Assembly (NCBI RefSeq): GCF_000169175.1
Contig: NZ_AAWS01000018.1
Span: 1-64,000 of the forward strand
Length of the DNA stretch: 64,000 nt
Direction of reading: 5' to 3'
DNA from: Microscilla marina ATCC 23134
GTDB lineage: Bacteria > Bacteroidota > Bacteroidia > Cytophagales > Microscillaceae
Below the pieces are notes generated by a model that worked only from the letters and a program-made list of their open reading frames with translations, was not told the DNA's origin and made no database searches. Below are positions 5,162 to 42,824 of the stretch, one piece after another (the first letter of the stretch is position 1; each line of letters starts with the position of its first letter). The translations under genes were made by a program, and so were the position numbers.

Positions 5162-6430
5162 TTACACCGCAAAACTCAATAATTCGGGTTGTTGATTGAG
5201 CAATTGGTATTGCACCTTGTTTTTTTCAAAGCGTTTGATGAGTGCAGCATAGTCTTGAGCAGTGGGTACCTCAATGCCTACCACTGCAGCGCCTTTTTCT
5301 TTGTTGTGTTTCTTGATGTATTCAAAGTGGGTAATATCGTCTTTTTCGCCCAGGGCATTGAGCAAAAATTCGCGCAAAGCGCCCGCCCGCTGAGGAAAAT
5401 TGATCAGAAAATAATGTTTGAGCCCTTCGTGTAGTAATGACTTCTCCTTGATTTCTTCCATGCGGGTAATGTCGTTGTTGCTACCACTTACCACACATAC
5501 CACGGTTTTGCCCTTGATCTGGTCTTTGAGCTGCTCAAGGCTGGCTATAGTGAGTGCGCCAGCAGGTTCTACTACTATAGCTTGTTGGTTATACAGCTCT
5601 AGTATGGTGGTGCATACTTTGCCTTCGGGCACCGTTTCTACCCTATCGAGCACTTGCTGGCATATTTCAAAAGTAAGCTTGCCTACTTTTTGCACCGCTG
5701 CCCCGTCTACAAACTTGTCTATGTCTGCCAGGGTTACAGGGGCGCCTTGTTCTAGCGAGCGTTGCATGGCAGGAGCACCAGCGGGCTCAATGCCCAGCAA
5801 TTGGGTGTCAGGGTTGATTTGTTTGATATAACTGCCCACCCCTGAGGCAAGCCCTCCGCCACCTACGGGCATAATTACAAAATCGGGTTTTTCTGGAATA
5901 TCGGCGAGTATTTCGAGTCCTACTGTGCCTTGTCCAGCTATTACCTTGGGGTCGTCAAAAGGGTGGATAAATACTTGTTTGTTTTGTTCGCAAAACGCGA
6001 CCGATTCTTGGTAAGCATCATCAAATGTATCGCCACAAAGACGTACTTCTACCCATTCTTTGCCAAACATTTTTACTTGATCTATTTTTTGGCGAGGAGT
6101 AGGTGAAGGCATAAAAATAGTGCCTTTTACCTTCAGTTTTTGGCAGGCATAGGCTACTCCCTGGGCGTGATTGCCTGCACTGGCACATACAATTCCCTGC
6201 TTAAGTTCTTCTTTGCTCAGGCTACTTATTTTGTGGTAAGCCCCCCTGATTTTATAAGAGCGAACACTTTGTAAATCTTCCCTTTTCAGGTAAATTTTTG
6301 CCTGATAACGTTCCGACAGCAAATGGTTAAACATCAGTGGAGTATGGTATACCACCTCTTTGAGTACCTGATGGGCTTTTTGTATGTTTACGACCGATAC
6401 CATGACATCGGTCGGATTGTCCAGTTCCAT
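5162..6430 (-). CDS. ilvA: Threonine ammonia-lyase (threonine deaminase)
   Basis: A PLP enzyme that turns L-threonine into 2-oxobutanoate and ammonia, the first committed step to isoleucine. The PLP lysine is K60 in SYKIRGAYHK. A glycine-rich phosphate-binding loop (GGGGLASG) follows, and a single ACT-like regulatory domain fills about residues 335-422. At 422 residues it is the shorter form with one ACT-like domain rather than the two seen in the roughly 514-residue Escherichia coli enzyme. The ATG at 6430 is used, although an ATG nine codons later (MVSVVN) is possible. It lies about 100 bases downstream of ilvC in the same operon. Confidence 0.96.
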   Translation of the reverse strand: MELDNPTDVMVSVVNIQKAHQVLKEVVYHTPLMFNHLLSERYQAKIYLKREDLQSVRSYKIRGAYHKISSLSKEELKQGIVCASAGNHAQGVAYACQKLKVKGTIFMPSPTPRQKIDQVKMFGKEWVEVRLCGDTFDDAYQESVAFCEQNKQVFIHPFDDPKVIAGQGTVGLEILADIPEKPDFVIMPVGGGGLASGVGSYIKQINPDTQLLGIEPAGAPAMQRSLEQGAPVTLADIDKFVDGAAVQKVGKLTFEICQQVLDRVETVPEGKVCTTILELYNQQAIVVEPAGALTIASLEQLKDQIKGKTVVCVVSGSNNDITRMEEIKEKSLLHEGLKHYFLINFPQRAGALREFLLNALGEKDDITHFEYIKKHNKEKGAAVVGIEVPTAQDYAALIKRFEKNKVQYQLLNQQPELLSFAV

Positions 6431-6488
6431 AATGGGTAGGTGTTTTTTGTTGATAGTTGATCGCCTTTTTTAAGAGTCAGGGAGGAAT

Positions 6489-6523
6489 TACACCTGCCAG
6501 ATTTCAAGCATCTGGCAGGTGTA
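6489..6523. repeat. Dispersed palindrome (CCTGCCAG type), copy 1
   Basis: Arms 6489-6501 and 6511-6523 are perfect reverse complements around a 9-base loop. It sits between ilvC and ilvA. The core (acctgccag/ctggcaggt) recurs at 33817, 34961 and 45704. It has no T run on the side expected for a minus-strand terminator, so it is called a repeat. Confidence 0.75.
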
Positions 6524-6528
6524 AAAAA

Positions 6529-7599
6529 TTACGCCTCTGTTTCTTCTTTTACCGGCTGATTTTCGGGGCGTAGTTGGCGTACTACTGCACCAGTTTTCCA
6601 CATTTCCGACTCGTGAATTACAGAAAGTTCTTCTTCCAGTTTTTCTCTATAGTCAGGCTTGCTGTTGGCTTCAATCGTGATCTTTGCCTCATTGCCCGAT
6701 GCCACACTTTCGTATAATTCTTCGTATACGGGTTCTACTGCTGCTTTGAATTTATCTTTCCAGTCGAGCGCACCACGTTGAGCGGTAGTAGAGCAGTTGG
6801 CATACATCCAATCCATGCCGTTTTCGGCCACCAAACGGATCAAACTTTGGGTCAATTCTTCCACTGTTTCGTTAAATGCCTCAGAAGGAGAGTGTCCCTT
6901 GCGACGCAATAGCTCGTATTGGGCTTCCATTACACCAGCAAGTGCTCCCATCAATACCCCTCTTTCTCCAGTAAGGTCGCTATATACTTCTTTCTCGAAA
7001 GTAGTTTCGAACAAGTAGCCAGAACCAATGCCTATACCCAAAGCCACTACTCTTTCTTTAGCCTTTCCGGTGGCATCCTGGTATATGGCGTAGCTTGAGT
7101 TTAAGCCTTTACCTTCTACAAACATGCGACGCAAACTGGTGCCAGAACCTTTAGGTGCCACCAACACAACATCTATATCTTTAGGAGGTACTATGCCCGT
7201 TTGTTCATGATAAGTTACCCCAAAGCCGTGCGAAAAGTACAAGGTTTTGCCAGTAGTCAAATACTTTTTAACTGTAGGCCACAAGTCAATTTGCCCGGCG
7301 TCTGACAATAAATACTGGATCACTGTACCGCGCTCAAGAGCTTCTTCTATAGAAAATAAATTTACTCCCTCTTCCCAGCCATCGGCCACGGCTTTGTCAA
7401 ACGACTTAGAAGGCTTGCGTTGTCCTACAATCACATTAAAACCATTGTCGCGCAGGTTCAATGCTTGTCCTGGTCCTTGCACTCCATAGCCTATGATGGC
7501 TATAGTGTCATTTTTAAGAGTTTCTACTGCTTTAGATAATGGAAATTCTTCACGGGTAGCTACTGTTTCGTCTACACCGCCAAAATTGATTGTTGCCAT
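6529..7599 (-). CDS. ilvC: Ketol-acid reductoisomerase
   Basis: 356 residues. It isomerises and reduces 2-acetolactate or 2-aceto-2-hydroxybutyrate to the dihydroxy acid with NAD(P)H and Mg2+. The nucleotide-binding loop GYGVQG is at 37-42, followed by NVIVGQRKPSKS; Arg, Lys and Ser in this loop are the usual signs of NADPH preference. The KARI C-terminal knotted domain follows, with conserved acidic metal ligands in the DLTGERGVLMGALAG segment. The length fits the short class I enzymes. Start ATG at 7599. It lies 537 bases downstream of ilvH in the ilv operon, the longest gap in the operon, filled with repeats. Confidence 0.97.
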   Translation of the reverse strand: MATINFGGVDETVATREEFPLSKAVETLKNDTIAIIGYGVQGPGQALNLRDNGFNVIVGQRKPSKSFDKAVADGWEEGVNLFSIEEALERGTVIQYLLSDAGQIDLWPTVKKYLTTGKTLYFSHGFGVTYHEQTGIVPPKDIDVVLVAPKGSGTSLRRMFVEGKGLNSSYAIYQDATGKAKERVVALGIGIGSGYLFETTFEKEVYSDLTGERGVLMGALAGVMEAQYELLRRKGHSPSEAFNETVEELTQSLIRLVAENGMDWMYANCSTTAQRGALDWKDKFKAAVEPVYEELYESVASGNEAKITIEANSKPDYREKLEEELSVIHESEMWKTGAVVRQLRPENQPVKEETEA

Positions 7600-7655
7600 A
7601 ACTTTTGTACTTTATTTAGGAACTTGACAAGCCCCTTAGTTCTAAAAAATAATTT

Positions 7656-7683
7656 AGTTGATAGTTGATAGTTGATAGTTGAT
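7656..7683. repeat. Tandem 7-bp repeat (AGTTGAT x4)
   Basis: Four perfect head-to-tail copies of AGTTGAT just upstream of ilvC. A degenerate relative (tagttgatagtcagtagttag) lies upstream of ilvB near 10680. This is a low-complexity intergenic repeat with no known role. Confidence 0.85.
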
Positions 7684-7767
7684 GGTTCGTAGCACCCACA
7701 GGGGCAAGTCCTTAGATACCGATGCATATCGGTGCTTCAAGTTGCGCCCTGTTTAACTGCGTTGATC

Positions 7768-7875
7768 TCATCACAGCAAGCTGCTGCCCCGATAAATTAG
7801 AAATATATTCGGTTCACAGGCAACTAACAAATTCATAGTGTGCTTATTTTCAGGGTTTTATGGATTTGTTAGTTA
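7768..7875. repeat. Dispersed intergenic repeat S, copy 1
   Basis: Two joined blocks found again elsewhere. The first (catcacagcaagctgctgcc and what follows) recurs at 53181. The second has inverted arms (aactaacaaattcata against a close reverse complement) and recurs at 54749. It lies inside the ilvH-ilvC gap. Confidence 0.7.
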
Positions 7876-8047
7876 AAAAGACCATAGTTTACCGTTGTTT
7901 TCTTAATTTTTACCTAGCCGAAGGTTGAGAATGAATGTGTTGTCAATTTTGCAAATATGATAAAAAAGTCCAAGGTCCGTAGACCGTAGTTTTTAACGCC
8001 ACTTGCGCTCATTCTTCATTAGCTTCGCAGAGCTCCCTCCGGTCGGT

Positions 8048-8125
8048 TCGTAATTTAGTCCGGAGTTGGTAGTCCGTAGACTATAGTTGTTTAGTGTCGC
8101 TTCGCGCTAATTCGTAATTCTCAAA
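8048..8125. repeat. Dispersed intergenic repeat (TCGTAATTTAGTC type), copy 1
   Basis: The stretch beginning ttcgtaatttagtccggagt is closely matched by 43205-43270, just after the stray CRISPR repeat. It lies directly downstream of ilvH. The function is unknown. Confidence 0.55.
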
Positions 8126-8136
8126 TTCGTAATTCT

Positions 8137-8667
8137 CTAAAGCGTCTGCCCCAACTCAGCAAGGTAAGAGCTTAGCCGTTTCATGGGCTTGGCTATAGCC
8201 ACCCTGCCTGAGCGTACAAAGCTCAAAATACCGTAAGGCTTTAGTTGCTCAAACAAATCTTGAGTTTCCGATTCGTGCCCGGTTTTCTCTATTACCATAA
8301 ACTCTGGCTCTACGGTGAGGATACGGGCATAATTGGCGCGGATGATTTTTTCTACTGCTTTGCTTTGCGCCAATGCCTGGGTAGATATTTTGTATAAGGC
8401 TACCTCCTGGAAAATAATATCCTCTTCATCGTAGTAAAAAGCTTTTAATACCTCTACCTGCTTTTCCAATTGTTTTACAATGCGTTTTACATTGGCCAAC
8501 GTGGTGGATATTACTACCGTAAACCTAAAGATTCCTTCGGTTTCCGAAGCAGAAGTTGTCAGGCTGTCTATGTTTATTTTTCGCCTGGTAAATATGTCAG
8601 TGATTCGGTTGAGTAAACCTATATTGTCTTCGGAAAAAACCGTTACAGTAAATTGTTCTTGTTCCAT
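8137..8667 (-). CDS. ilvH: Acetolactate synthase small (regulatory) subunit
   Basis: 176 residues. An N-terminal ACT domain (about 5-80, opening FTVTVFSEDNIGLLNRITDIFTRR in essence) is followed by the ALS small-subunit C-terminal domain. It binds IlvB, raises its activity and gives feedback inhibition, typically by valine. The length is normal for the family (about 160-190). It sits 246 bases downstream of ilvB in the same operon. The start ATG at 8667 is the first in frame. Confidence 0.96.
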   Translation of the reverse strand: MEQEQFTVTVFSEDNIGLLNRITDIFTRRKINIDSLTTSASETEGIFRFTVVISTTLANVKRIVKQLEKQVEVLKAFYYDEEDIIFQEVALYKISTQALAQSKAVEKIIRANYARILTVEPEFMVIEKTGHESETQDLFEQLKPYGILSFVRSGRVAIAKPMKRLSSYLAELGQTL

Positions 8668-8913
8668 TATTCATATTTAATCTTCTGAAAATCAATGAGT
8701 TAATTTTTAGAGATGAATCATTGGTTAAATAGTAGCTTGTCCTTTTACATCTGCTTATGAGCAGTATTTAAATAAATAATATTAAAATGTGCTTGCTTTG
8801 AAACAGCTGGATAACAGGAGTAATTCTACATGCTAATTTACAGCTTTTCTGTGTACACAACTGATACAAAATTAACCGTTCATCGTTATAAGTTGAGTGT
8901 TTTAAGCAAGCAT

Positions 8914-10659
8914 TTATTCCAAACGAATATTAGATATGCTTTCTCCGGTGGGAACCATCGGAAAAACATTGGTTTCTTTTTCTACCACTACCTCCAGCAA
9001 AAATGAGCCTTGGTGCGCCAGCATATTTTGCAAACCATCTGCTAGTTGGTCTCTTTGTTCTACCCGTTGGGCGCCAATGTGAAACGATTTGGCAAGTGCC
9101 ACAAAATCGGGGTTGACCATTTCGGTAAACGAATATCTTTTGTCGAAAAACAACTCTTGCCACTGGCGAACCATTCCTAAAAAACTATTATTCAGAATGA
9201 TTATCTTTACGGGTATTTGGTATTGCATCAGCGTACCCAACTCTTGGGCAGTCATCTGAAACCCCCCATCGCCTATAATTGCCACTACCTCACGGTCGGA
9301 ACGAGCAATTTTAGCACCCATTGCTGCAGGCAGGGCAAACCCCATGGTACCCAAACCCCCCGAAGTAATGTTGCTGTTGGGTTGGTCAAACTGGTAATAG
9401 CGACTGGCAATCATCTGATGTTGCCCTACATCGGTTACTATCACAGCTTTGCCTTTAGTTTGGTCAGACAAAGCCTGTACTACTTCCGCCATTTTTAGCT
9501 TAGGCGTGCTGGGCTGCATGGTTTTGCTTACCACTTTTTCATTTTCTACCTTTTGGCAATTATCAAACTCTTTGAGCCAATCTTGGTGAGCACGTGTTTT
9601 CACCAAAGGTAACAAGGCTTGCAAAGCTTCTTTGGCATCGCCTATGACAGGTACATCTGCTTTTACATTTTTGTCTATTTCGGCAGGGTCTATCTCTATA
9701 TGTATCACCTTGGCTTGTTGGGCGTAGCGGCTTAAATCACCAGTTACCCGATCGTCAAACCTCATGCCTACAGCAATGAGTAAATCAGCCTCATTGGTCT
9801 TTACGTTGGGTCCATAGTTGCCGTGCATGCCCAAAAAGCCCACATACAGAGGATGATGGGTAGAAAACGACGACAGCCCAAGCAAGGTACTGGCTACCGG
9901 AATCCCGGTTTTTTCTACAAAAGTTTGCAAATCCTGTTCTGCTTCGGCAAGTGACACTCCCTGACCCATCAATATCATTGGCTTTTGCGCTTGATTGATG
10001 AGTTGAGCAGCTTGCAAAATCTGTCCCTGGTTAAGCTGAGGAATGGGGCGGTAGCTCCTTATTTTTTCGCATTTTTTATACTCAAAATCAAGTACACCAA
10101 ACTGCGCATCTTTGGTAATGTCAATCAATACTGGTCCAGGTCGTCCGTTTTGAGCGATGTAAAATGCCTTGGCTATAGTGGCAGGTATTTCTTCGGCACG
10201 AGTCACCTGAAAATTCCACTTAGTCACTGGGTTAGAGATACCTATGATGTCGGTTTCCTGAAAAGCATCACTGCCCAGCAAGTGGCTTGCCACCTGCCCG
10301 GTGATACATACCAAAGGTGTGGAGTCTATTTGTGCATCGGCAATACCTGTGATGAGGTTAGTAGCACCTGGGCCAGAGGTAGCAAAGCAAACTCCGGCTT
10401 TTTTTGCCAAACGAGCATACCCTTGAGCCGCATGGGTAGCTCCCTGTTCATGGCGGGTCAGTATATGGTTTACCTGGTCGGTATAATGATACAAAGAATC
10501 GTATACTGGCATAATGGCGCCTCCCGGATAACCAAAAATGGTATCTACACCTTCGGCAAGCAGCGATAATATGAGCGCTTCGGCTCCGCTTACCTTTCGG
10601 GGGCTGGTATGGGATTTTTCTCCTGCTGGAGTAGCTACTTTTTGAGCTTGTGCATTCAT
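8914..10659 (-). CDS. ilvB: Acetolactate synthase large (catalytic) subunit
   Basis: 581 residues. This ThDP-, FAD- and Mg-dependent enzyme condenses two pyruvates, or pyruvate with 2-oxobutanoate, at the first shared step of the branched-chain pathway. The catalytic ThDP glutamate is E71 in RHEQGATHAAQGYAR. The middle FAD-binding domain and the C-terminal ThDP/Mg motif (IIGDGGFQMTAQE through NNSFLGMVRQW) are complete. A 25-residue N-terminal extension is low-complexity. It lies 127 bases downstream of ilvD. Confidence 0.97.
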   Translation of the reverse strand: MNAQAQKVATPAGEKSHTSPRKVSGAEALILSLLAEGVDTIFGYPGGAIMPVYDSLYHYTDQVNHILTRHEQGATHAAQGYARLAKKAGVCFATSGPGATNLITGIADAQIDSTPLVCITGQVASHLLGSDAFQETDIIGISNPVTKWNFQVTRAEEIPATIAKAFYIAQNGRPGPVLIDITKDAQFGVLDFEYKKCEKIRSYRPIPQLNQGQILQAAQLINQAQKPMILMGQGVSLAEAEQDLQTFVEKTGIPVASTLLGLSSFSTHHPLYVGFLGMHGNYGPNVKTNEADLLIAVGMRFDDRVTGDLSRYAQQAKVIHIEIDPAEIDKNVKADVPVIGDAKEALQALLPLVKTRAHQDWLKEFDNCQKVENEKVVSKTMQPSTPKLKMAEVVQALSDQTKGKAVIVTDVGQHQMIASRYYQFDQPNSNITSGGLGTMGFALPAAMGAKIARSDREVVAIIGDGGFQMTAQELGTLMQYQIPVKIIILNNSFLGMVRQWQELFFDKRYSFTEMVNPDFVALAKSFHIGAQRVEQRDQLADGLQNMLAHQGSFLLEVVVEKETNVFPMVPTGESISNIRLE

Positions 10660-10785
10660 GGGGTTTGTTGTTTTAAATTAGTTGATAGTCAGTAGTTAGT
10701 AGTCAGGAGCCTCTGAAGTCAAGAGCTATTTCTTCATTCTTAAGTAAACCAGCTCCCGACTACAGGTTATCTACTCCCGACTAGC

Positions 10786-12462
10786 CTATTCATCCGTTAC
10801 ACAGCCCTCCGAGGCCGACGAAACAGTACGGGCATATTTGCCTAAAATTCCACGGGTAAAGCGCGATTCTGGTGCTTGCCATTGGGCGCGTCGTTGGGCT
10901 ATTTCTTCCTCTGATAAGTGCGCCACCATTTGGTTGTCTACCGCATCAATCGTGATTCGATCGCCATCCTTAAGCAAGGCAATCAAGCCACCTTCCTGTG
11001 CTTCAGGGCACACGTGTCCCACTACAAAACCGTGTGAACCACCCGAAAACCTACCATCTGTAATCAATGCCACGCTATTGCCCAGCCCGGCACCCATTAT
11101 TGCAGAGGTAGGCTTGAGCATTTCAGGCATTCCCGGACCACCCTTGGGGCCTTCGTACCTAATGACTACCACGTGCCCAGCTTTTACTTCTCCGTCCTGA
11201 ATACCTTTGATAGCCTCAAACTCTCCGTCGTACACCTTGGCAGTACCTTCAAATTTTTCTCCCTCTTTGCCCGTAATTTTAGCTACTGCCCCTTGTGTGG
11301 CCAGGTTGCCAAATAACACTTGTAAATGTCCCTGAGGTTTTAGAGGTTGGCTTATTGGGAACAGCACGTCCTGATCGTCTTTTACCGGAGCAATGTTAGC
11401 AAGATTCTCAGCAAGCGTTTTGCCCGTTACCGTCAAACAATCACCGTGTAGCAATCCCTCGTCCAGCAATAGCTTCATTACAGCAGGGGTGCCACCAATG
11501 GTGTGCAAGTCTTCCATCAAGTACTTTCCACTAGGCTTGAGATTTGCCAAATAAGGAGTTTTGTCGCTGATACGTTGAAAATCTTCCAGGCTTAGATCCA
11601 CCTCAGCAGCTTTGGCAATGGCAATCATGTGCAGCACCGCATTGGTAGAGCCTCCCATGACCATGATCATTGTCAAGGCATTTTCAAAAGCTTTTTTGGT
11701 CAATATGTCGAGGGGTTTGATGTCCTCTTCGAGCAGCTTTCTCATAGCTTTGCCCGCATCTATACATTCTTGTTGTTTTTCAGGGCTTTGGGCGGGATTA
11801 GAGGCTCCATAAGGTAAGCCCAATCCAATAGCTTCTATCACTGTTGCCATCGTGTTGGCAGTATACATACCGCCACAAGCTCCTGCACCAGGGCAAGAGT
11901 TTTGGATAATTCCTTGATAATCTTCTTCATTCAAACTTCCGTTAAAACGCTGTCCGAGTGCTTCAAAGGCAGACACAATATTGAGTTTTTGACCTTTGTG
12001 ACAGCCTGACCTGATGCTTCCGCCGTAAACAAGCAGTCCAGGACGGTTCAAACGCGCCAGAGCCATCATAGCTCCCGGCATGTTTTTGTCGCAACCCACT
12101 ACAGCAAGTATCCCATCGTACCATTGAGCCTGCACTACAGTCTCTATCGAGTCGGCGATAATGTCGCGTGAAGGCAACGAAAAACGCATTCCTTCGGTAC
12201 CGTTAGATATTCCGTCGCTTACGCCTATAGTATGGAATACCAACCCTACCAAGTCTGCTTCTTTAGTACCTTTTTTGGTTTCCAAGGCCAGATCATTGAG
12301 GTGCATGTTGCAGGTATTGCCCTCATAACCAGTACTTACTATGCCTATTTGAGGCTTGCTCATATCCTCTTTAGTAAGCCCTATGCCATACAGCATTGCT
12401 TGAGAGGCTGGTTGGGTTACATCCTGAGTAATTCGTCGGCTGTATTTGTTCAAAACTGTCAT
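10786..12462 (-). CDS. ilvD: Dihydroxy-acid dehydratase
   Basis: 558 residues from the ATG at 12462 ([10 protein letters not shown]). A longer frame runs back to 12660, but it would overlap ilvE and add 66 residues unlike the family, and GAAGAG sits just before 12462, so the shorter start is preferred. The enzyme dehydrates dihydroxy acids to the 2-oxo acids of Val, Leu and Ile synthesis with an Fe-S cluster. Cluster and metal ligands are visible in [12 protein letters not shown] and [16 protein letters not shown], and the C-terminal [19 protein letters not shown] segment is intact. It lies 110 bases behind ilvE. Confidence 0.96.
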
Positions 12463-12572
12463 AACTCTTCGTTTGAAACTATCTGTTAGCGTGTGTTTTT
12501 TGTTAGCTGCAAGGAGCGAGCTACTGGGCATCACAGAGCCCCGGTAGCTTGAAACTTGTCCCTTGTAGCCTT

Positions 12573-13460
12573 TTATATAATCGTATAAGTTTGGAAGTTT
12601 TCTTTTCTTACGTGTTGTTGGTATTCTTGCTGTAGTTGATAGCCCAGCGAATCTTCCCAATGTACTGGAAAGTGATAGTCATCGATAGACTTGATGCCAG
12701 CTACTTCGCTTGCGGTTCCTGTAAAAAATGCGCTATCGGCTTGTTGGAGTGTTTCAGGTTTGCAGTGTTGTTCGAAAACTTCTATGCCGTTTTCGCGGGC
12801 AAGGTCTATGATGGTGGCGCGGGTGATGCCAGGTAAAATATTGCCCAAAGGAGGAGTGTATAATTTGCCGTCTTTTTCGTAGAAGAAATTTTGCCCTGAC
12901 CCTTCGGCAACAAAACCGTTCATATCACAAAGCAAGGCTTCATCAAACCCTTTTTGTTTGGCTTCCTGGGTGGCAAGTATTGAGTTGGCGTACATTCCGC
13001 TCAATTTTACTTCCATCGGAAAAGCTTTGGGGTTGGGGCGTTGATACGACGATAACATTACGCGGCAGGTATCATCTCCAAGGTACTTTTCCCAAGCCCA
13101 AGCCATCATTACCAAGTGAGAGGTTTTGGCAGGAGCCAATGACATTTCGTCGCCCATAAATACCAGTGGACGTATATAAGCATCTTTTAACTCGTTTTTT
13201 TCTAACAAAAGATAAGCAATGTTAGTAAGCTCTTCTGTAGAATAATTGAAAGGCATGTGCATGCGTTCGGCAGATCGCTTGAGGCGCTCAAAGTGAGCTT
13301 TTGCCTTAAATATGGCGGTGCTACCTTCCAGGGTTTTATAAGCCCTTATGCCTTCGAAAACTCCATTGCCATAATGCAATGTTTGACTCTTGATACTACA
13401 TTGACTATTACGGGAATTGATAAACTCACCATCGTGGAATATTATTTTGTGCCTGTTCAT
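12573..13460 (-). CDS. ilvE: Branched-chain amino acid aminotransferase
   Basis: 295 residues of the class IV PLP aminotransferase fold. The PLP lysine is K152 in [24 protein letters not shown] near residue 30 and the phosphate-binding GNILPGITR segment are typical of BCAT. It interconverts Leu, Ile and Val with their 2-oxo acids using glutamate. It is the first enzyme gene of the operon. Its leader region carries two attenuator-like terminators with Leu/Ile/Val-rich leader peptides, so its expression is probably tied to branched-chain aminoacyl-tRNA supply. Confidence 0.96.
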
Positions 13461-13501
13461 TTTTACGGTATTTTGTAGTGTATTATTTCTGACTTACTTA
13501 T

Positions 13502-13534
13502 AAAAAAAAGCCTTTCTCTTCGTGAGAAAGGCTT
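13502..13534 (-). terminator. Attenuator terminator 2, directly before ilvE
   Basis: On the minus strand GCCTTTCTC pairs perfectly with GAGAAAGGC around a 5-base loop and is followed by eight T residues, 42 bases before the ilvE start. The stem's 5' arm (CTTTCTCA) can instead pair over 8 bp with TGAGGAAG, which overlaps the stop codon of leader peptide 2. A small hairpin (13534-13550) lies between. Position and structure fit an attenuator. Confidence 0.85.
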
Positions 13535-13561
13535 CGTATTTTATATACGAATGCTGCTTCC

Positions 13562-13627
13562 TCAATTAAAGTAGAGAATAATAATAATGACTAGAATTAG
13601 TAGAGAAATACAGACGCAGTGTATCAT
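13562..13627 (-). CDS. Leader peptide 2 of the ilv operon (21 aa)
   Basis: ATG at 13627, TGA at 13562-13564. The 21-residue product has residues 9-18 LLILVIIIIL and 13 Leu, Ile or Val residues in all, with four consecutive ATT isoleucine codons. It ends 28 bases before the terminator stem that precedes ilvE. Such density of the pathway's end products in a short frame right before a terminator is the hallmark of ribosome-mediated attenuation: starved ribosomes stall in the run and let the RNA fold the antiterminator. The region before the start is extremely AT-rich with no clear Shine-Dalgarno, as is usual in this phylum. Recognised from sequence alone. Confidence 0.8.
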   Translation of the reverse strand: MIHCVCISLLILVIIIILYFN

Positions 13628-13671
13628 TATATTATAATATTTTTAATATATAGTTTAAATCTATGTGATAT

Positions 13672-13705
13672 AAAAAAAGCTGTTTTTACGTGGGTAAAAA
13701 CAGCT
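13672..13705 (-). terminator. Attenuator terminator 1 of the ilv operon
   Basis: On the minus strand a 12-bp perfect stem (AGCTGTTTTTAC with GTAAAAACAGCT) around a CCAC loop is followed by seven T residues. It comes 22 bases after the stop of leader peptide 1 and before leader peptide 2. Its 5' arm and loop (TTTTACCC) can pair with GGGTGAAA inside leader 1, a possible antiterminator. Confidence 0.85.
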
Positions 13706-13726
13706 CTTTGTTAATTTTTTGTATGT

Positions 13727-13813
13727 TTACAATTGACAAAGCCATTTCACCCCTGGTCGGTTAATAATGACCAGGATAATAATCAGGTTAACAATGACTA
13801 AGTAATTTTGCAT
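13727..13813 (-). CDS. Leader peptide 1 of the ilv operon (28 aa)
   Basis: ATG at 13813, TAA at 13727-13729. Residues 5-17 read LVIVNLIIILVII, giving 12 Leu, Ile or Val in 13 positions. Codons 14-15 (CTGGTC, with the preceding C) can pair with GACCAGG at codons 19-21, forming a hairpin that a stalled ribosome would block. The freed GGGTGAAA could then pair with the 5' side of terminator 1. This gives the classic 1:2, 2:3, 3:4 arrangement. No significant gene product is expected other than the act of translation. It starts about 115 bases downstream of the amine oxidase gene on the same strand. A possible -7 box (TAAAGTTTG) lies near 13872-13880 on the minus strand. Confidence 0.8.
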   Translation of the reverse strand: MQNYLVIVNLIIILVIINRPGVKWLCQL

Positions 13814-13928
13814 TTTTCTTTGTTTGTTAAAATTTGATAGTTCTAATAACAGGGAAAAGATTCCAAGGATCAAACTTTAGTCGTAATTTTTTTTGAGAAT
13901 ATCAATATAGTGCAAGCGTGTGTTAATA

Positions 13929-15263
13929 TCATTCAAAAAGTTCTATCGATTCTACGACTTCCTTCACGGCACGGTAGCCGGTTTCTAATGCCCCATGAAC
14001 AGTCCCTAAATGCCCCCAGGCGTTGGTAGCTTCTCCGGCAAAGAATATTTTATCATCTATGGGTTCTGCCAAACTAATACGTTCAGGTTCGGAGTTGAGG
14101 GCAGGATAGGAGTAAGCCCCTTTAATGTATGGTTCTTTGCTCCAGTCCATAATATAGCTATCCACCAGGTTGTCGGTGGCTTTGCGTTCACCATAAAACT
14201 CGTCCAGTTCGTGCAGTGCTACATATACCGCTTGTTCGCCCAGACTACTTAGGTATTCGGCATTTTCGCCGTTGACAAAAGCAGTCAATACGTGGTCTTG
14301 TGTGTCTTTGCCTATGCCAGTAGCCCAAAACTCAGGCACTTGCCCTCCCGGAAATATAGAAACCATATCTTCTTGCCAAAACCTTTCTTTAAACTTTAGA
14401 ATAATTTTCATCCCTGCATCCATGCCTATAGTATCTATAGCTTTTTGTTTTTCTTTGTCGAAGGCGGGCAAAAAAGCAATATCACCTGCCTTGAGCACGC
14501 TTAGAGGCACTGTTACAATTACTTTATTGGCTGTATACTGTCCTTTCTTGGTGTCTATCTCTATGAGTTCTTTGGTAGTATCTACCATTACCACCGGGCT
14601 ATTGAGCTGCACCTTGGGCAGTACATCGGCAAAAGTGGCTTTGAGTACTTCGTTGTAACAACCATTCTTCATGGCAAAATTAGACTCACCCGAAGACCAC
14701 TTTCTGTCGGCCTGTGCCATACTTAGTACTCCCAGGCGTTGGTTAGAGGTGCCATATTCGTTGCCATACCAGGCGTTGATTACGTGGTGGTATTGTTCGG
14801 GTACTTTGAGGCGTTTTATATAATCAGCCACTGACACTTCTTCGTGGTCGTACTCTTCCCAGTTTAGAGTAAATTTATCTACCCTTTCGTAGCTCTCGGC
14901 GTTTTGCATTTCTTTGAGACTAAGTACTTTATCTTCTATCTTGTAGAAGGTAGTACCGTATTTGATGGGGCTAATTACTTCTTTTTGCTGGGCTTGTATT
15001 AGTTCGTACCAGGCAGATTTTCGCCCGTGAATTTCTTCTGCCCCCAGTTCTATCGGAAAGTCTGCAAAACCCTCAAGGGCTCTTATTCGTCCGCCTATCA
15101 CCTGCGAAGCTTCCAATATGGTGTATTCAATGCCGCTTTTTCCTAAGATATGCCCGGCAGTAAGTCCTGCTATTCCGGCGCCAATAATAATCACGCGTCC
15201 ATCCCAGGGTTTTTCCAGTGAGAACCCGTTTTTGATGGCAGGCAAAATTTCATTTCTGTACAT
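13929..15263 (-). CDS. Flavin-containing amine oxidase (monoamine oxidase-like)
   Basis: 444 residues from the ATG at 15263; a TTG start nine codons earlier is less likely. The FAD dinucleotide fold is clear: GAGIAG at 28-33, then LEASQVIGGR, the usual E-x(5-6)-GGR ribose-contacting segment. The C-terminal FAD motif KIFFAGEATNAWGHLGTVHGA is also present. The family (plant polyamine oxidase, MAO, LSD1 type) oxidises primary, secondary or polyamines to aldehydes with release of H2O2. No signal peptide is evident, so it is probably cytoplasmic. The substrate is not determinable. It lies upstream of the ilv leader on the same strand without a visible terminator between. Confidence 0.88.
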   Translation of the reverse strand: MYRNEILPAIKNGFSLEKPWDGRVIIIGAGIAGLTAGHILGKSGIEYTILEASQVIGGRIRALEGFADFPIELGAEEIHGRKSAWYELIQAQQKEVISPIKYGTTFYKIEDKVLSLKEMQNAESYERVDKFTLNWEEYDHEEVSVADYIKRLKVPEQYHHVINAWYGNEYGTSNQRLGVLSMAQADRKWSSGESNFAMKNGCYNEVLKATFADVLPKVQLNSPVVMVDTTKELIEIDTKKGQYTANKVIVTVPLSVLKAGDIAFLPAFDKEKQKAIDTIGMDAGMKIILKFKERFWQEDMVSIFPGGQVPEFWATGIGKDTQDHVLTAFVNGENAEYLSSLGEQAVYVALHELDEFYGERKATDNLVDSYIMDWSKEPYIKGAYSYPALNSEPERISLAEPIDDKIFFAGEATNAWGHLGTVHGALETGYRAVKEVVESIELFE

Positions 15264-40800: not shown

Positions 40801-42824
40801 CTTTAAGAGCTACTTCCACTAAAACAAGGATTGAAACGCCGGAATGTTTTTGTAGATGAGGCGAATGTTTCAGCCTTTAAGAGCTACTTCCACTAAAACA
40901 AGGATTGAAACGAAGTTGAATTATCCAATGCAAAAACAGTAGTTGGCTTTAAGAGCTACTTCCACTAAAACAAGGATTGAAACCTTTTAAGGGTCATACA
41001 ACAACACCTGCTCCGGTTATCTTTAAGAGCTACTTCCACTAAAACAAGGATTGAAACTTTCTGCTCGATCTGCAAATGCCTCAAAGCTGGCTTTCTTTAA
41101 GAGCTACTTCCACTAAAACAAGGATTGAAACAAGTAAGATGGGACCTGGTAGAGAAGTGGAGCTTTGACTTTAAGAGCTACTTCCACTAAAACAAGGATT
41201 GAAACTCTGATGGCACCTATTACCTACACACCCGCAAATACAACTTTAAGAGCTACTTCCACTAAAACAAGGATTGAAACCACGACTGTTAGCACTAAGT
41301 GCACTATTAAGATTGCGCCTTTAAGAGCTACTTCCATTAAAACAAGGATTGAAACCGGGTGCCACTTTGACCTATCCACCTCATACCCTTATCCTTTAAG
41401 AGCTACTTCCATTAAAACAAGGATTGAAACCCCTTACATCAGGATAAACTGATGAAAAACTGTAGGCTTTAAGAGCTACTTCCATTAAAACAAGGATTGA
41501 AACAAAATCTCATTCCATTGAAACTCATTTTCTTTTTCAGCACCCTTTAAGAGCTACTTCCATTAAAACAAGGATTGAAACAGGTTACTTAAGTTACCTA
41601 TACTTTCTGGTAAAGTAGCTTTAAGAGCTACTTCCATTAAAACAAGGATTGAAACATTCTCCATTTGCTCTGGACAGATGACCAATTAAAATCTTTAAGA
41701 GCTACTTCCATTAAAACAAGGATTGAAACCAGGCAGATTCAGCGATTGTCTCGCCAAAAGACTTCTTTAAGAGCTACTTCCATTAAAACAAGGATTGAAA
41801 CCAGCTTCTATATGTCTGTTTCTCTTGTCTGCTATAGCTTTAAGAGCTACTTCCATTAAAACAAGGATTGAAACTATCGAAGCTAACGTTGTGCCCGATT
41901 ATAAACGACTTCTTTAAGAGCTACTTCCATTAAAACAAGGATTGAAACTAAAGCAATCAATACGCCTTATTAATTCCTTTATGCTTTAAGAGCTACTTCC
42001 ATTAAAACAAGGATTGAAACCAGTCTACCTTCTACATATACTTGGTTCCCTTTCTTCTTTAAGAGCTACTTCCATTAAAACAAGGATTGAAACCAGTATC
42101 AGAGAAAGGGTTAAATTCGAACACTTTACACTTTAAGAGCTACTTCCATTAAAACAAGGATTGAAACATAAGTACATAACTGACAACGAAAAAGAGGCAA
42201 AAGCTTTAAGAGCTACTTCCATTAAAACAAGGATTGAAACACTTAACAAGAACAACTTCACCAACAAAAAGACTCTCTTTAAGAGCTACTTCCATTAAAA
42301 CAAGGATTGAAACTCGTCGTAATAAGTAGCGTGTGCGGGGTATTTATACTTTAAGAGCTACTTCCATTAAAACAAGGATTGAAACTTTGCACCTATAAAC
42401 TGACGCTTAGGCATTGTTGCCTTTAAGAGCTACTTCCATTAAAACAAGGATTGAAACCAGTTTGCCCGCCTAATGTTCTAGTGAACACCACACTTTAAGA
42501 GCTACTTCCATTAAAACAAGGATTGAAACTTTATATTTTCGTCGCTTCCCCATATCCTATTACTCTTTAAGAGCTACTTCCATTAAAACAAGGATTGAAA
42601 CACTCCGAAAGCGCCTCTTCTGCTCTTTCCCCATACACTTTAAGAGCTACTTCCATTAAAACAAGGATTGAAACTTTCACTATTGACGACCCTAATCGCT
42701 TCCTTATAAATCTCTTTAAGAGCTACTTCCATTAAAACAAGGATTGAAACAGATTAGTATTGAAATGGCACACCCTGAAAGCAGTAACTTTAAGAGCTAC
42801 TTCCACTAAAACAAGGATTGAAAC
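40801..42824 (+). CRISPR. CRISPR array, 28 repeats and 27 spacers
   Basis: The 37-bp repeat begins CTTTAAGAGC and ends AAGGATTGAAAC. Repeat starts: 40801, 40875, 40947, 41021, 41095, 41169, 41244, 41319, 41394, 41467, 41545, 41619, 41693, 41765, 41838, 41912, 41984, 42057, 42131, 42204, 42277, 42349, 42421, 42493, 42565, 42638, 42714, 42788. Spacers are 35-41 bp and all differ. Repeat position 19 is C in repeats 1-7 and 28 but T in 8-27. The ATTGAAAC end is typical of type I and III systems. No cas gene is in the window, so the array must be served from elsewhere or be idle. Confidence 0.98.

Follow-up and report, generated by a model that had tools for sequence, protein, structure and literature searches.

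Two ribosome-mediated transcription attenuators probably act one after the other on a single ilv leader transcript of Microscilla marina, and two complete units in series appear to be the best-supported reading of the region in front of its branched-chain amino acid operon. Ribosome-mediated transcription attenuation has long been known for ilv, trp, his and thr operons and is the textbook coupling of translation to transcription, usually drawn as one decision. In the arrangement proposed here, a shortage of charged tRNA for Ile (and Leu, Val) would make the ribosome stall in an Ile/Leu/Val run, the downstream RNA at or shortly before the leader stop codon would then pair with the 5′ arm of the terminator, and the polymerase would go on. 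With plentiful amino acids, the ribosome at the stop codon would cover the pairing segment, or would have passed it, and the terminator would form. RNA polymerase would have to clear both checks, so that the basal read-through expected is roughly one small leak multiplied by another, with a steeper response than one unit would give. We infer that such stalling takes place in cells and that the output is multiplicative and sharper.

Leaders, antiterminators and terminators upstream of ilvE

The window, that is, the whole stretch of 64,000 nucleotides that was analysed, carries on its minus strand two Leu/Ile/Val-rich leader ORFs between a flavin amine oxidase gene, which ends at 13929, and ilvE, which starts at 13460. 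Behind the leaders the genes follow in the order ilvE, ilvD, ilvB, ilvN, ilvC and ilvA, as judged from their Pfam domains, the names being inferred from domains and order. The window also holds a CRISPR array of 28 repeats on the plus strand (40801-42824), with an Rfam CRISPR-DR7 match. The parts of the two units and of the presumed operon are the following.

13871..13878, minus strand: weak candidate for a Bacteroidota −7 element, AAAGTTTG (5/6), upstream of leader 1; shuffle p 0.39
13727..13813, minus strand: leader peptide 1, predicted ORF MQNYLVIVNLIIILVIINRPGVKWLCQL, 28 codons plus TAA, with the run L-V-I-V-N-L-I-I-I-L-V-I-I (sequence)
13752..13775, minus strand: CCTGGTC/GACCAGG hairpin within leader 1, at the control codons (folding)
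13692..13752, minus strand: antiterminator 1, in which GGGTGAAATGGCTTTGT (13752-13736, ending 7 nt before the TAA) pairs with ACAAAGAGCTGTTTTTACCC (13711-13692) (folding)
13674..13709, minus strand: intrinsic terminator 1, AAAGAGCTGTTTTTAC-ccac-GTAAAAACAGCTTTTT, followed by a T-rich tail (sequence and folding)
13562..13627, minus strand: leader peptide 2, predicted ORF MIHCVCISLLILVIIIILYFN, 21 codons plus TGA, with the run L-L-I-L-V-I-I-I-I-L (sequence)
13524..13563, minus strand: antiterminator 2, in which GAGGAAG..GCaTTCGTAT (GAGGAAG..GCATTCGTAT) pairs with ATACGAAGC-CTTTCTC (folding)
13507..13535, minus strand: intrinsic terminator 2, GAAGCCTTTCTC-acgaa-GAGAAAGGCTTT, with a T tail to about 13502 (sequence and folding)
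12573..13460, minus strand: ilvE, branched-chain aminotransferase (aminotransferase class IV), first gene of the presumed operon (Pfam)
5162..12540, minus strand: ilvD, ilvB, ilvN, ilvC and ilvA, the remainder of the presumed operon (Pfam)

The original prediction had named these two reading frames, at 13813-13727 and 13627-13562, and a strong terminator after each; both frames are present in the sequence, and the terminators lie within a few bases of where they had been placed (13709-13674; 13535-13507). Its central claim, two complete attenuation units, is borne out by sequence and folding model to the extent that a leader ORF, control codons, an antiterminator and a terminator can be assigned to each. 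Terminator 1 has a folding z-score of −5.64 and terminator 2 one of −3.89, and in both cases 0 of 200 shuffles fold as well. The layouts are not identical: antiterminator 2 starts inside the TGA stop codon of leader 2, whereas in unit 1 the paired segment ends ahead of a later stop codon. In the fold, the CCTGGTC/GACCAGG hairpin of leader 1 sits beside antiterminator 1 without competing with it and is possibly a pause hairpin. Searches with Rfam gave scores of 26.1 bits (Thr_leader, RF00506) and 24.3 bits (Phe_leader, RF01859) for unit 2 (13501-13607, minus strand), below the gathering threshold of 55 in both, and no match to the T-box riboswitch, either at the gathering score or with E up to 5.

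Switching in a ribosome-position folding model

The gain in the model is the sequestering of the terminator 5′ arm with the ribosome stalled at Ile/Leu/Val codons compared with the ribosome at the stop codon; the footprint is fixed (first base of the A-site codon plus 12 nt), and kinetics are ignored. In unit 1, the 5′ arm is predicted to be sequestered by 15.9 kcal/mol when the ribosome stalls at I16/I17, against 1.1 at the stop codon, and in unit 2 by 14.4 kcal/mol (stall at I14-L18) against 4.4. Gains of this size were reached by 1 of 1000 spacer shuffles for unit 1 and by 4 of 1000 for unit 2. With the ribosome at I17 of leader 1, antiterminator 1 is predicted to form at −17.1 kcal/mol, and with the ribosome at L18 of leader 2, antiterminator 2 at −16.0 kcal/mol, each using up the 5′ arm of its terminator. 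Each antiterminator is mutually exclusive with its terminator and starts at or shortly before the leader stop codon. In the model, then, stalling in the Ile/Leu/Val run would leave the antiterminator free in both units.

Both units, as computed, combine an Ile/Leu/Val-rich ORF, an intrinsic terminator before the first gene and an antiterminator on the terminator's 5′ arm, the features expected of an attenuator. A stalled ribosome frees the antiterminator in the folding model and a ribosome at the stop codon blocks it, incompletely in unit 2, where 4.4 kcal/mol of sequestering is left at that position and the off state may be leaky. Once the 3′ arms are present, the terminators (−20.5 kcal/mol for unit 1 and −20.3 for unit 2) are more stable than the antiterminators, and the outcome should therefore rest on timing, as in known attenuators.

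A 1:2 protector hairpin, which in attenuators of the E. coli trp kind favours termination without translation, was not found in either Microscilla unit when folded without a ribosome. Folded with no ribosome and as yet no 3′ arm, each unit adopts its antiterminator in the model (8.6 for unit 1 and 12.6 for unit 2), which therefore predicts read-through when the leaders are untranslated. Relatives vary in this respect: across 66 units of the order, the no-ribosome value averages 5.4 against 1.4 at the stop codon, and values of 0.9-1.7 are found in the first units of loci L029, L087 and L088 and in both units of L222.

Chance was assessed by scanning 464,000 bases of the 9.77 Mb Microscilla genome (the window and another 20 stretches of 20 kb each, on both strands) for an Ile/Leu/Val-rich ORF followed by a terminator. 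The scan returned 31 rows, one candidate appearing twice, hence 30 distinct candidates, among which units 1 and 2 have the two largest stall-dependent gains (14.8 and 10.0 kcal/mol; the next has 7.3). That only these two reach at least 10 kcal/mol speaks against the view that terminator 1 simply belongs to the amine oxidase gene upstream and that leader 1 is an ORF by chance. That gene does share the strand of the leaders, and no further terminator came up in the scan of the interval up to leader 1; however, terminator 1 lies about 220 nt past the amine oxidase stop codon, with an Ile/Leu/Val run and an antiterminator fitted between, and this explanation is very unlikely.

The same genome has a trpE-like gene preceded by one Trp-rich leader, MNEKSLHITRCWWWHKRELSSVNSPVVYV (CWWWH), with a strong terminator (L257, reverse complement, 1182-1329). 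Its gain in the same model is small (6 vs 3), so the stall model is not a sure yardstick.

Single and tandem units in related genomes

A second genome of the genus Microscilla, G007, has the same locus. Between the two genomes, the region 13928-13500 shows 4 differences in 429 nt against 140 in 3403 in the flanking genes (p 0.0002), and 6 in 468 (p 0.0007) when the last 39 nt before ilvE are added. The four comprise one V-to-I and one synonymous change in leader 1, whose frame is kept, an N-to-K change behind the run of leader 2, which is kept as well, and a change in the length of a T tract.

Relatives were sampled at 30 of 44 ilvE matches, at 74 of 278 ilvD matches in the order and at 45 of 48 ilvD matches outside it, with cut-offs of −9 for the terminator and 10 codons for the leader in a first survey and of −8 and 8 codons in a second. 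The first 90 loci (275 kb) yielded 65 ATG-started units on the sense strand, 2 of which were dropped later as lying in or at genes, compared with 1 on the reverse strand. The set of 66 units of the order submitted to the stall model excludes L030:2759 and L092:854, which fall within genes or at a gene end, and the TTG frames L113:1715 and L136:1675. Their stall-dependent gain averages 12.24, compared with 1.89 in shuffles, and 63 of the 66 exceed all of their own 20 shuffles. Stalling has its greatest effect at an I, L or V codon in 58 units (32.5 expected) and at some other codon in 8.

The terminators of these relatives vary widely, with AAGCCTTTCTC, GCCATTGTC, GCGCCAATCC and ACCGCCTCGA types, and the segment behind the control codons tracks the terminator. 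Among 64 units (L133 and L090 also dropped), it pairs with its own arm at a mean of −16.5 kcal/mol and with unlike arms at −9.3; in 51 of the 64, its own arm is equalled by fewer than 5% of the unlike arms. The Ile/Leu/Val-rich frames are thus kept while the terminators differ, and the arm-pairing segment changes with the terminator, which is a form of the covariation that had been proposed as a check together with the original prediction. In the arm-swap test, Microscilla unit 2 stands at 0.00, unit 1 at 0.05 and the first unit of L088 at 0.12; region 2 of Microscilla unit 1 does not clearly stand out.

In the final survey, units were accepted at a stalled value of at least 7 and a gain of at least 5 kcal/mol. 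The ilvE and ilvD loci of the order comprised 57 with a single unit, 7 with a double and 38 with none out of 102, and those elsewhere in the class 12, 4 and 29 out of 45. No unit was accepted on the reverse strand of the 147 loci (428 kb). Locus L030 was counted as single, its second sense-strand unit falling inside a gene; L109 and L138, second loci of genomes already counted, were left out, and L228 (117 nt) and the short L118 and L190 were retained in the denominators. Family f5 (L043, L045, L099, L100) was not counted as tandem despite a second terminator before the first gene, because the short frames ahead of it show no notable stall-dependent gain (0-3 kcal/mol at every codon in L043 and L045, 1-5 in L099 and L100). 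This second terminator-like hairpin of f5, between the Ile/Leu/Val attenuator and the first ilv gene, is preceded by short frames that are not Ile/Leu/Val-rich and that contain Cys-Cys in L043 and L045.

The search for paired leaders before ilvE or ilvD of relatives, also suggested at the outset, yielded double units in 11 genomes from 6 genera and 5 families of the class among the 147 sampled loci. They comprise the 2 Microscilla genomes, 5 of the 8 sampled genomes of genus g75 (family f19), and one genome each of g216 and g185 (both f74), g148 (f41) and g143 (f36). The other 3 sampled g75 genomes have no leader before ilvD. In the g75 locus L087, about 590 nt separate the pair from ilvD, and that genome yielded no close ilvE. 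A recent duplication of one unit was rejected for Microscilla, where the likeness of units 1 and 2 does not exceed that between units from different genera (0.94 of the between-genus pairs have an equal or higher score). Four tandem loci outside the order lean towards likeness in this test (0.03-0.11), and the five g75 loci do not (0.30-0.90).

It is rather unlikely that the two leaders sense different things, for instance different Leu isoacceptors, or Val against Ile in g75, and form a two-input AND gate. The Leu codons of the Microscilla leaders do differ (CTG/TTA in unit 1, CTA/CTC in unit 2), and in g75 the peak stall spans Val codons in first units and lies on or includes two Ile codons in second units. 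Against this, all 11 tandem loci have at least 4 Ile codons in each of their two units and the peak stall is at Ile in both Microscilla units, so that Ile starvation should open both.

A further alternative, somewhat less probable still, is that only unit 2 regulates the operon from a promoter within 13670-13630, unit 1 being a separate short RNA or a relic of a former attenuator. The 46-nt gap between terminator 1 and the ATG of leader 2 in Microscilla leaves space for a second promoter, and sigma70-like matches occur between the units (13674-13631), where a Bacteroidota-type element is no better than chance; unit 1 also has the deviating layout described above, and terminator 2 is of the AAGCCTTTCTC type common to many single units of relatives. 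However, unit 1 has a switching potential that shuffles seldom reach (1/1000), and the leader as a whole is kept in the second species with the 4 differences in 429 nt. The spacers of the tandem loci bear on the same question: they measure 14, 15 and 17 nt in L193, L210 and L222 (15 nt with the start of leader 2 of L210 set at the inner ATG, 1617) and 51-177 nt in the remaining loci other than Microscilla, and a second promoter in the three short cases would have to fall inside unit 1, a stretch in which the scan showed no good element. A −7 promoter element matching at 6/6 precedes 3 of the 11 first units but none of the 11 second units, with median shuffle p of 0.07 and 0.81, respectively; single units, with 26 of 80 at 6/6 and a median p of 0.24, are only moderately better than chance. 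The Bacteroidota −7 consensus used for this scoring is general background. Both Microscilla units are likely transcribed from one upstream promoter, as action in series would require.

Two observations concern the surroundings of these leaders. In L028, L029, L087, L088, L193, L210, L221 and L222, a −7-like element (5-6/6) begins 14-26 nt before the ATG of leader 1, so near that translation of those leader peptides may start on RNA that is leaderless or almost so. In L028 and L087, g75 loci with long spacers, palindrome-like stretches can be seen by eye between terminator 1 and leader 2.

Relation to known attenuators and tandem switches

Known leader-peptide attenuators, which have been surveyed in Actinobacteria (PMC1262725), share with the Microscilla units an ORF rich in codons for the product, an antiterminator and a terminator with a common 5′ arm, and a decision set by the position of the ribosome; the Microscilla locus differs in its two units in series and, in the model, in having no evident 1:2 protector. 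The original prediction regarded such attenuation as mainly proteobacterial. This view does not agree with at least one unit in 64 of the 102 sampled loci of the order, nor with Flavobacterium psychrophilum of the same phylum, for which the same mechanism has been inferred upstream of amino-acid operons, with no tandem case in the passages that describe it (PMC9723704).

The mgtCBR leader of Salmonella contains two leader ORFs, sensing ATP and proline with an additive effect, and the pertinent passages call it a singular example and set it apart from the metE tandem riboswitches, which have two terminator sites (PMC3641672). It resembles the Microscilla leader in that two leader ORFs in one leader both act by attenuation. 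The Microscilla units, in contrast to the mgtCBR ORFs as described in those passages, hold the same kinds of codons and have a terminator each, so that passage should need both.

Tandem homologous riboswitches are described, in the relevant part of one review, as making successive termination decisions with a steeper, 'digital' and pseudo-cooperative output (PMC9481103). There, too, two like switches stand in series, with an aptamer as the sensor instead of the translating ribosome; series action in Microscilla would be expected to sharpen the response likewise. Tandemly arranged riboswitches are also enriched at branched-chain genes of Bacillota, and tandem T-boxes occur at other genes, according to the passages concerned (PMC12452182). 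The class found at the branched-chain genes is likely the T-box, which also reads tRNA charging. The likeness lies in doubled RNA switches before branched-chain genes, whereas the Bacillota switches, as far as those passages go, work without a leader peptide and belong to another phylum, and Microscilla gave no T-box match.

No report of two same-amino-acid leader-peptide attenuators in series was found in the accessible parts of the open-access literature; subscription journals lie mostly outside it, and an earlier description is possible. That literature already covers single attenuation, which has been inferred in Bacteroidota too, as well as tandem riboswitches and tandem attenuators that respond to different signals. 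Probably, the loci described here represent homotypic tandem leader-peptide attenuation: two checks read by ribosomes, alike in the amino acids to which they respond and each ending in a terminator of its own, would form a series gate before ilv genes. This gate would have arisen or been retained independently in five or more families of Bacteroidia, as the ribosome-based counterpart of tandem riboswitches and T-boxes. Two same-signal decisions in series would lower the leak and steepen the response without a regulatory protein, and such attenuators would directly test the extent of transcription-translation coupling in Bacteroidota. Related genomes that naturally have either one unit or two ahead of the same genes allow the benefit of the second check to be measured.

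Elsewhere in the Microscilla genome, leuA has no Ile/Leu/Val leader with a terminator upstream. The hisG gene is preceded by a TTG-started frame with three His codons (THRHTKQFH; L256, reverse complement, 1158-1302) and a weak hairpin (−9.1), which may or may not be a his leader.
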